A DNA stretch of 6,680 nucleotides, from assembly GCA_017547265.1 (NCBI GenBank), contig JAFYQC010000230.1:1-6680 (forward strand), in the 5' to 3' direction. Source of the stretch: Kiritimatiellia bacterium (lineage in GTDB: Bacteria; Verrucomicrobiota; Kiritimatiellia; RFP12; UBA1067). Position 1 is the first letter of the stretch; every line of letters begins with the position of its first letter. A program made the position numbers and the translations under genes. The notes beneath the pieces were generated by a model, which was given only the letters and a program-made list of their open reading frames with translations, had not been told where the DNA came from and did not search any database. Of the stretch, positions 3,238-6,680 are shown in pieces.

Positions 3238-3804
3238 ATGAAAGTCGCACTAACGGGAGGGATTGCCTGTGGCAAATCCCTCCTTTCCAACTTTTTGAGA
3301 GAGCTCGGCGTTGAAACCATCGACGCCGACGATGTCGTTCACGAACTTATTCCAGACCCAGCCGAGCGCCGGCGCATTGCTGCCGAGGTGTTTGCCGACC
3401 CTGAGAAGCGCCGCGCCCTCGAGGCGAAGATACACCCGTTGGTGAAGGAGAGGATCGACAGGTGGTTTGAGGGGTTAGGGGTCAGGGGTCAGGAGTCAGG
3501 TGTCAGGAGTCGGGCGAGAGTAAAAATTGCCATTATCCCACTTTTATTCGAGGCACACTGGGAGAAAAATTTTGATATAATATGCTGCGTCGTCTCCTCT
3601 CGGGAGAAGCAAATCGAACGGATGATGACGACACGGGGGATGACGCTTGCGGAAGCCGAGGCACGACTCGCAGCGCAGATGCCGGTTGAGGAAAAGGCCA
3701 GGCGTTCGCAGTATGTCATCCATAACGACGGCACAGCCGAGGATCTTCGAGCAGAGGCACAAAAGCTCGTCGACACTCTCTGCGCCTCTGCGTCTCTGCG
3801 TTAA
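3238..3804 (+). CDS. coaE: Dephospho-CoA kinase
   Basis: CoaE phosphorylates the 3'-hydroxyl of dephospho-CoA with ATP, the last step of coenzyme A synthesis, in the cytoplasm. The 188-residue product has the P-loop GGIACGKS (7-14), the IDAD motif (28-31), FADPEKRRALEAKIHP (52-67), PLLFE (101-105) and the C-terminal ARLAAQMPVEEKARRSQYVI with IHNDGT (161-166), all typical of the family. ATG 3238 follows the secretin stop by 7 bp, and an AAGGA at 3231-3235 sits close upstream, suggesting an operon or translational coupling. Three oddities are visible. Residues 79-92 are encoded by a 42-bp heptamer array. The last eight residues (LCASASLR) are encoded by an octamer array. About 22 residues usually found between the DAD motif and the FADP segment are absent, compared with E. 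coli CoaE from memory. Catalytic motifs are intact, so function is likely. Confidence 0.93.
   Translation: MKVALTGGIACGKSLLSNFLRELGVETIDADDVVHELIPDPAERRRIAAEVFADPEKRRALEAKIHPLVKERIDRWFEGLGVRGQESGVRSRARVKIAIIPLLFEAHWEKNFDIICCVVSSREKQIERMMTTRGMTLAEAEARLAAQMPVEEKARRSQYVIHNDGTAEDLRAEAQKLVDTLCASASLR
3472..3513 (+). repeat. Heptamer array inserted in frame in coaE
   Basis: Six consecutive 7-bp units: GGGTTAG, GGGTCAG, GGGTCAG, GAGTCAG, GTGTCAG, GAGTCGG. Total length is 42 bp, exactly 14 codons (79-92 of coaE), beginning on a codon boundary and encoding GLGVRGQESGVRSR. The array lies between the helix ending DRWFE and the strand ARVKIAIIPLLFE, a place where other CoaE proteins have a short turn. 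The reverse complement (CTGACCC, CTGACTC) is the unit of the array between coaE and rho. Confidence 0.9.
3778..3801 (+). repeat. Octamer array forming the 3' end of coaE
   Basis: Three consecutive 8-bp units, CTCTGCGC, CTCTGCGT and CTCTGCGT, occupy exactly the last eight sense codons of coaE (LCASASLR). The TAA stop begins at the next base. Similar CTCTGCGYCTCTGCG strings are, as I recall, dispersed in several unrelated bacterial genomes, so this is likely a mobile or expanding simple repeat that overwrote the original coaE terminus rather than conserved coding sequence. Confidence 0.75.
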
Positions 3805-3812
3805 AATCAATT

Positions 3813-3950
3813 CTCCAACTCTAAACTCTAAACTCTGACTCCTGACTCCTAATCTCCAACTCCAACTCCTGACTACTGACCCCTGACTACTGACCCCTAA
3901 CCCCTGATCCCTGACCCCTAAACTCCAACTCCAACTCTGAACTCCAACTC
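3813..3950 (+). repeat. Degenerate heptamer array filling the coaE-rho spacer
   Basis: Almost the whole spacer is built from 6-7-bp units. The cleanest run is 3869-3917: CTGACTA, CTGACCC, CTGACTA, CTGACCC, CTAACCC, CTGATCC, CTGACCC. Two CTGACTC units lie at 3835-3848. The flanks (3813-3834 and 3918-3950) are more diverged CTAAACT, CCAACTC and CAACTC units. The strand is strongly C-rich and G-poor. No intrinsic terminator, clear -35/-10 pair or Shine-Dalgarno sequence is visible in it; it ends four bases before the rho ATG. It resembles the short tandemly repeated sequences of cyanobacteria in style, without claimed homology. Confidence 0.88.
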
Positions 3951-5523: not shown

Positions 5524-5606
5524 TGGTAGGGGCGTCTCTCACCCCTCTAGCGACCGCTGACGCGGCTCGCTTCGCTCGGGGGATACGAGACGCCTGCGGA
5601 CTACCA
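5524..5606 (+). repeat. Palindromic element copy A (TGGTAGGGGCG family) between rho and uvrA
   Basis: This 83-bp element fills most of the 101-bp rho-uvrA spacer. Its outer ends are inverted: TGGTAG (5524-5529) with CTACCA (5601-5606), and GGCGTCTC (5531-5538) with GAGACGCC (5587-5594). Positions 5524-5600 match 6079-6155 of copy B inside uvrA at 75 of 77 bases. Copy A lacks 18 bp found near the right end of copy B. There is no T-run after the palindrome, so it does not look like a standard intrinsic terminator. No transposase or target-site duplication is visible. Confidence 0.88.
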
Positions 5607-5610
5607 GAAT

Positions 5611-5616
5611 AGGTGA
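5611..5616 (+). promoter_or_regulatory. Possible Shine-Dalgarno sequence bearing on the uvrA start
   Basis: AGGTGA lies just after palindromic copy A. It abuts or overlaps the ATG at 5616, too close to serve it, but is five bases from the in-frame GTG at 5622. If it is the ribosome binding site, UvrA starts at GTG 5622 as MAGNIEIINAKVHNL, two residues shorter. rho has no such site at all, so leaderless or SD-independent initiation at ATG 5616 also remains possible. Confidence 0.4.
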
Positions 5617-6680
5617 TGGCAGTGGCTGGCAACATCGAGATCATCAACGCAAAGGTCCACAACCTGCGGGGAATCGACGTCACGATTCCCCGCAACTCTC
5701 TCACGGTTGTCACGGGGCTTTCGGGTTCGGGCAAGTCGTCGCTTGCGTTTGACACGCTATATGCAGAAGGCCAGCGTCGCTACGTCGAATCGCTTTCCGC
5801 GTATGCGCGGCAGTTCCTCGACAGGATGCAGAAGCCCGACGTCGAGAAGATTGAAGGGCTTTCGCCTGCTATTTCCATCGAGCAGCGCACGACGAGCGGC
5901 AATCCGCGTTCGATCGTCGCGACCGTCACCGAGATACACGACTACCTGCGAATCCTCTACGGATCGATTGCGGTAGCGCATTGCCCGCATTGCGGCAAGC
6001 CGGTCGTGAAGCAGTCGGCCGAGCAGATCGTGGAGGCGATTATTAGGGGACATGAGGCAGGGGCGACCCGGTCATCATTGGTAGGGGCGACTCTCACCCC
6101 TCTAGCGACCGCTGACGCGGCTCGCTTCGCTCGGGGGATACGAGACGCCCGCGGACGCGTCGGAGACGCGTCCCTACCAGACGCCAACGCTGGAAGGAAG
6201 ATTATAATTTATGCGCCGCTTGTGAAGGGCAAGAAGGGGCGGCACGAAGAGCCGCTTGCGGCAGTGAAGCGCAACGGCTTTGCGCGCGTCAGGATCGACG
6301 GCACGATATATCCCGTCGACGAGCTTCCCGCGCTCGACAAGAAAAAGGCGCACACCATTGACGTCGTGGTTGACCGTCTCGTGATTCCAGCAGCGCCCGA
6401 CGCTGCGTTCAAGACACGTCTCACCGACTCTGTCGAACTTGCCCTCAAGACCGGCAAGGGAATTCTTATGGTAGGGGCGTCTCTCCGAGACGCCAGCGGA
6501 CGCGTCGGAGACGCGCCCCTACCAGACGCCAGCGGACGCGTCGGAGACGCGCCCCTACCAGAGGTAACCTATTCAGACCTCAACGCGTGTCCCGATTGCG
6601 GCATTTCGTTTGACGAGCTGAAGGCGCGGTCGTTTTCGTTCAACTCGCCGTTCGGCGCGTGCCCGACGTGCGCGGGGCTC
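5616..6680 (+). CDS. uvrA: UvrABC excision nuclease subunit A, N-terminal part (3' end outside window)
   Basis: UvrA is the ATPase that finds bulky DNA lesions and loads UvrB in nucleotide excision repair. The frame stays open for 355 codons to the window edge. The match is unmistakable: IEIINAKVHNL, Walker A GLSGSGKS (34-41), AFDTLYAEGQRRYVESLSAY, IEGLSPAISIEQRTTS, NPRSIVATVTEIHDYLRILY, a CPHC pair (123-126), then APLVKGKKG, KKKAHTIDVVVDRL, and the first half of the zinc module CPDC (325-328) and CPTC (349-352), spaced by 20 residues. Two palindromic repeats are read in frame, residues 155-188 and 285-315, both in the UvrB-binding region. Allowing for the start offset, the first zinc cysteine lies about 69 residues later than E. 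coli Cys253; the repeats supply about 65 of these. ATG 5616 is the annotated start; GTG 5622 has better Shine-Dalgarno spacing. No stop or frameshift is seen, so the gene is probably functional. Confidence 0.95.
   Translation, partial: MAVAGNIEIINAKVHNLRGIDVTIPRNSLTVVTGLSGSGKSSLAFDTLYAEGQRRYVESLSAYARQFLDRMQKPDVEKIEGLSPAISIEQRTTSGNPRSIVATVTEIHDYLRILYGSIAVAHCPHCGKPVVKQSAEQIVEAIIRGHEAGATRSSLVGATLTPLATADAARFARGIRDARGRVGDASLPDANAGRKIIIYAPLVKGKKGRHEEPLAAVKRNGFARVRIDGTIYPVDELPALDKKKAHTIDVVVDRLVIPAAPDAAFKTRLTDSVELALKTGKGILMVGASLRDASGRVGDAPLPDASGRVGDAPLPEVTYSDLNACPDCGISFDELKARSFSFNSPFGACPTCAGL
6079..6179 (+). repeat. Palindromic element copy B, in frame within uvrA
   Basis: A 101-bp element with inverted ends: TGGTAGGGGCG (6079-6089) and CGTCCCTACCA (6169-6179), matching at 10 of 11 positions when one is reversed. 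The left 77 bp match copy A at 75 positions; the right 36 bp (6144-6179) match the copy C unit at 34 of 36. It is read as UvrA residues 155-188, from LVGATLTPLA to GRVGDASLP. It sits between QIVEAIIRG and KIIIYAPLVKG, which are nearly adjacent in other UvrA proteins. The other two forward frames are closed by TAG or TGA within the element. Confidence 0.92.
6469..6560 (+). repeat. Palindromic element copy C with 36-bp tandem duplication, in frame within uvrA
   Basis: Positions 6469-6524 form a near-perfect hairpin: TGGTAGGGGCGTCTCTCCGA (6469-6488) pairs with 6505-6524 at 18 of 20 positions around a 16-base loop. The right-hand 36 bp (6489-6524) is repeated without any difference at 6525-6560. 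Each copy is twelve codons encoding DASGRVGDAPLP. The whole is read as UvrA residues 285-315, between TGKGIL and EVTYSDLNACPDC. Copy C lacks the left-central part shared by copies A and B, so it is a short form of the family. Confidence 0.92.

Follow-up and report, generated by a model that had tools for sequence, protein, structure and literature searches.

Palindromic repeat DNA, probably tolerated as a predicted protein loop, in the uvrA gene of a relative of rumen Kiritimatiellae

Genes, host, and repeat copies of the window

The window, that is, the whole stretch of 6,680 nucleotides that was analysed, contained a secretin-like gene, coaE, rho, and the start of uvrA; no Rfam family was found in it at the gathering score. 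In a search with the secretin (30 loci), the top two matches were the cattle-rumen genomes RUG673 (87%) and RUG12088 (86%), and several of the next-ranked loci belonged to ruminant Kiritimatiellae. Judged from these similarities, the host is a relative of rumen Kiritimatiellae, and its phylum differs from that of Rickettsia, as the original prediction had supposed. The genomes of loci L001 to L007, termed G001 to G007, served as stand-ins for the genome of the window in repeat searches and are called the relatives below. Three repeat copies (A, B, and C) were located in or beside uvrA, and KPE is the name given here to the 45-nt palindrome inside the first REP hairpin:

5524..5601, forward strand: copy A, in the rho-uvrA spacer; GTAG REP with nested KPE, 97% match to copy B over 78 nt, hairpin z -3.2
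5541..5585, forward strand: KPE of copy A, 45 nt
5613..6680, forward strand: uvrA, N-terminal part; ORF open to the window end, with homologues and alignment; start uncertain (GTG at 5613 or later)
6079..6179, forward strand: copy B, in frame in uvrA; REP with nested KPE, then a second REP in opposite orientation
6096..6140, forward strand: KPE of copy B, 45 nt, translated as TPLATADAARFARGI
6469..6560, forward strand: copy C, in frame in uvrA; GTAG REP without KPE and two opposite-orientation units, recognised from direct and inverted repeats and the fold

Copies A and B had been described as near-identical (75 of 77 positions) and about 500 bp apart. The near-identity holds, with two differences between 5524-5601 and 6079-6156, and the distance is 555 bp. 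Further repeat copies were also expected and do exist, but the 101-bp unit does not represent one sequence family: it is a composite of a GTAG-tagged REP pair, the first hairpin of which encloses an independent 45-nt palindrome, the KPE. Copy C, a third REP copy beyond those of the original prediction, starts with TGGTAGGGGCGTCTCTCCGAGACGCC, which comprises GTAG, an 8-bp stem, and a 3-nt loop, as in GTAG REPs; in its layout, GTAG-G-GGCGTCTC-TCC-GAGACGCC, GTAG adjoins a stem within the 6-13 bp of such REPs, with a short loop. In copies A and B, the REP is split between TCTC and CGAG by 45 nt (ACCCC...GGGGGATA). Copy A without its KPE is exactly the first 26 nt of copy C, and the REP of copy B has one base changed relative to that of copy C. 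A stretch to the left of the copy B insert reads like a degenerate REP. As single-stranded DNA, 6078-6180 folded with -32.7 kcal/mol, whereas its 200 shuffled versions averaged -22.0 (sd 2.5; z -4.28) and none of them was equally good. Copy A (78 nt) had no match among plasmids and phages.

The insert in UvrA

No stop interrupts the uvrA frame between 5613 and the end of the window, a span that includes copies B and C. The solved domain 3fpn aligns to residues 129-230 of the short UvrA of locus L017, and copy B is inserted at L017 position 139, which confirms the predicted in-frame palindromic insert in the UvrB-binding domain. Relative to this short protein the insert adds 47 residues, instead of the 34 first given. 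The site is empty, with a short loop, in the UvrA of L007, L013, L017, L023, and L026 and in the protein P0001, and in alignments the insert segment was not conserved in UvrA of distant lineages; both had been anticipated. The same composite insert occupies the same place in the metagenome protein P0044 (94% identity, 58% of the query), the sequence of which departs from the UvrA frame shortly after the insert. The AlphaFold model of UvrA was poor (mean pLDDT 65), and its low confidence at the insert says little because conserved residues 24-101 also scored below 50.

The outer REP in related genomes

A search for further copies, named beforehand as a check, found them dispersed in related genomes. 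The REP head pattern occurred in 5 to 35 copies in each of the seven relatives (0 to 2 for the reversed control), and copies were paired across the two strands at a spacing of about 40 nt, as GTAG REPs often are. Y1 transposase genes were present in all seven relatives (24 rows, 21 above the cut-off; loci L121-L144). Neither these GTAG REPs nor KPE ends were found beside them in these 24 loci, which covered about 1.5 kb on each side and were in some cases cut by contig ends; letters resembling the REP head with one mismatch were present at Y1 loci and, by reading, form no hairpin. No RAYT gene flanked by these REPs was found among the seven relatives. According to the report on GTAG REPs (PMC3733652), genomes with such REPs can lack REPtrons.

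The KPE family and its nesting

A strict gapped KPE pattern was found in 22 of the 114 genomes of the family of G002 (reversed control, 0) and, in a phylum sample, in 4 of 288 genomes (G002, G052, G059, and G072), all of the same family; these counts are lower bounds because the pattern allowed no mismatch and missed two subfamilies. The KPE hairpin arms covary (CCGC/GCGG, CATTGC/GCAATG, and TTTGC/GCAAA). Among 82 distinct copies, which remained from 83 after a 62-nt nested copy was excluded, the core measured 45 nt in 51, 48 nt in 26, 44 nt in three, and 33 nt, with a degenerate left end, in two. The left neighbour was C in 78 of the 82 and the right neighbour YG in 57. Heptamer arrays held 28 of these copies, REPs 10, and other sequence 44. 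At L117 (2469-2562), a KPE was nested in a KPE of a different subfamily, with matching changes at both ends. The flanks rejoin without target-site duplication both when copy A is compared with copy C and in eight copies at the exact site GTTCCC^CGTTCCC; the target-site duplication characteristic of MITEs was found at none of the KPE insertions examined.

KPE inside genes

In six of the seven relatives, 61 KPE places were listed, and 60 remained after exclusion of G002:C32, which held the REP part only; one of the 60 (L096) was too diverged for the copy-listing pattern. These places were classed by hand from Pfam scans, positions, and, for the first KPE of the G006 uvrA, an alignment. By this classing, 28 of the 60, spread over 23 gene families, were enclosed by a Pfam match or flanked by two of them in a single open frame, and in 11 the KPE lay to one side of the Pfam match of an open frame. 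The remaining 21 had neither; five of their ORFs were scanned without a match, and 16, mostly with short spanning frames, were not scanned. Named by Pfam content, the 23 families are uvrA, amidohydrolase, Mur ligase, era, proS, maf, lacZ, carB, lysS, metG, peptidase U32, mnmG, SIS-CBS isomerase, protein kinase, coaE, UvrD-like helicase, glycosyltransferase, MFS, Fe-S protein, tlyA, FGGY kinase, ABC-F, and lnt. Alignments to solved structures break at the KPE in LysRS (26 residues against 2 in the structure), ProRS (37 against 14), and MnmG (121 against 16).

The same KPE DNA was translated as TPLATADAARFARGI, HPSSDRLRGSLRSGD, SPERSEPRKRSLEGW, and IPRAKRAAQEVARGV, and related subfamilies as YPPSEASRRRRCPSRGG and PPRIEPPSALASLGGY. 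In all, KPE was read in all six frames with no conserved peptide; therefore, a shared peptide function is unlikely, and an interpretation of the insert as a protein domain was ruled out. Open frames through KPE are in themselves unremarkable by a rough calculation, since about four of the six frames are expected to be open at 65% G+C. A GH123 frame (L105, 1227-2663), which belongs to the 11 with the KPE to one side of the Pfam match, covers only positions 1-111 of the 324 of its family and stops soon after the KPE, and this gene was possibly broken there. Some insertions may thus be harmful, given the truncated GH123 and the loss of frame after the insert in P0044.

UvrA loops as a shared site of insertion

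A UvrA-like match (E of 1e-100 or better) was present in 108 of the 114 family genomes, some matches being fragments or a distant paralogue. In a length survey of 80 sequences, with five duplicate pairs included and several sequences incomplete, internal length varied at five loops, at L017 positions 139, 205, 230, 429, and 584, where inserts longer than 10 residues numbered 12, 7, 21, 26, and 28, respectively. Loops 139 and 205 lie within the UvrB interaction domain (3fpn). In loop 139, the inserts included a REP with KPE in the window, a KPE in G006, a heptamer array in G111, and a repeat of the GTTGGAG type in G005. Many related bacteria had none. Among the 94 insert rows, 43 matched DNA elsewhere in the fetched loci, which had partly been chosen for KPE or REP, and 51 did not; ten rows came from five duplicate pairs, judged by eye, and after deduplication 37 of 84 matched. 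G002 and G001 were considered as a clean pair of KPE-empty and KPE-filled sites at loop 429 and were rejected, because G002 has other bases in the middle of the insert.

Across the 22 KPE genomes, UvrA carried 27 inserts in 20 proteins (820 residues), more than mutS (7 in 15; 138 residues), secA (4 in 20; 96), uvrB (1 in 20; 16), or alaS (4 in 17; 63), and gyrA came close when its C-terminal tail, with 9 of its 15 inserts, was counted (14 proteins, 305 residues); this excess is descriptive because the counts ignore phylogeny and the control inserts are not shown to be repeats. A tandem in-frame repeat, VTRQDAASPCVGGALG, was seen in the MutS of G061 (L259).

Origin of the insert

The insert in uvrA is probably selfish repeat DNA that is tolerated as a predicted protein loop. 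A GTAG-tagged REP pair would have inserted into one of the loops of the UvrB-binding domain, and an independent KPE of 45-48 nt would before that have entered the tip of the first REP hairpin, with no detectable target duplication. Because the composite occurs in both the rho-uvrA spacer and uvrA, one of copies A and B was probably derived from the other. The REPs were most likely mobilised as single-stranded hairpins by an HUH transposase of the TnpA_REP type; such enzymes cleave single-stranded REP hairpins with the assistance of GTAG (PMC8266576). The mobilising enzyme can only be inferred here, because the Y1 loci carried neither these REPs nor KPE ends. A comparable single-strand route may serve KPE, with hairpins and repeat arrays as targets, and the insertion of KPE without visible duplication fits such a route without proving it. 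For a copy inside a gene to persist, its net length would have to preserve the reading frame, the frame in use would have to be free of stops, and the insertion site would have to be a loop; the inserted peptide would have no constant role, the loops being presumably neutral. It is an even call whether, in this one bacterial family, several miniature repeats without relation to one another, a 45-48-nt palindrome that nests in itself among them, add new loops to housekeeping proteins in whichever frame, and distinct repeat families have settled independently in the same few loops of UvrA.

The hairpins might also have spread with no transposase, if replication led to template switching or slippage, or to gene conversion, between palindromes and repeat arrays. 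This is rather unlikely, although the failure to find a REP- or KPE-flanked transposase in the seven relatives agrees with it, as does the location of 38 of the 82 KPE copies in repeat arrays or REPs and of one KPE within another. The sharp KPE ends (left C in 78, right YG in 57) and the 44 copies in other sequence argue in the opposite direction. Selection for the inserts, as loops that tune UvrA and other enzymes or as RNA hairpins that tune messages, is improbable: the repeated reuse of the UvrA loops and the earlier mention of repair genes as REP targets in PMC3733652 could be read in its favour, but the same DNA is used in six frames, one and the same loop can hold unrelated sequences, and many related bacteria lack any. 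Hardly any weight falls on an assembly error, in which the repeat was misassembled into uvrA, or on a dead uvrA. The genomes are metagenome assemblies and P0044 runs off frame after the insert; yet P0044, from a different contig, has the same insert, all rows of the UvrA-like matches of the family are free of internal stops, and other housekeeping enzymes with inserts keep open frames.

Relation to known repeats

On sequence grounds, the outer part of the insert fits known GTAG REPs, with which it shares the GTAG end, a short GC-rich stem, a small loop, opposite-orientation pairs, many copies, and in-frame copies in the uvrA of a verrucomicrobium (PMC3733652). That account, from 2013, describes double in-frame GTAG REP insertions in both uvrA genes of the verrucomicrobium Opitutus terrae, and GTAG REPs in the uvrA of Thioalkalivibrio as well. 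The present case differs in the unrelated palindrome in the REP loop, in the Kiritimatiellae host, and in that no REP-flanked RAYT was found. REPIN/BIME elements likewise consist of two REPs in opposite orientation, whereas here an extra palindrome is nested and the position is inside genes.

The proposed parallel with Rickettsia palindromic elements (RPEs) stands for in-frame insertion in many unrelated genes, and some RPE families share loci among different elements (PMC3767692, PMC10969869); shared hotspots are discussed in the former. It fails for length and peptide: according to these reports RPEs measure 100-150 bp and a conserved peptide is reported, whereas KPE has 45-48 nt and is read in six frames. 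KPE is further set apart from RPEs by the phylum of its host. In the one open-access library searched, no description was found of the KPE family, of its nesting in REPs or in itself and its use in all frames, or of unrelated repeats sharing UvrA loops; as far as searched, the KPE family, its nesting, and the shared UvrA loops are new. Read-through palindromes within genes have precedents in Rickettsia and in some genomes rich in REPs, and here they occur in many housekeeping enzymes of one clade. Filled and empty sites in close relatives make the neutrality of the inserts testable, and the clade is useful for asking why uvrA and repair genes are repeatedly hit and how one hairpin enters another.

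Other repeats

Short tandem heptamer repeats occur in cyanobacteria, and the 7-nt arrays found here, such as GTTCCCC, which are dispersed and also lie within genes, resemble them as they are generally described. A GGGGTCA-type heptamer repeat lies in frame within coaE (3470-3515), and its reverse complement occupies the coaE-rho spacer (3813-3950). The 3' end of coaE (3778-3804) is made of a CTCTGCGCCTCTGCGTCTCTGCG-type repeat, which resembles letters found in one UvrA loop of L005. The secretin frame has, as its N-terminal part (20-298), a direct repeat array rich in Pro, Ala, and Glu.
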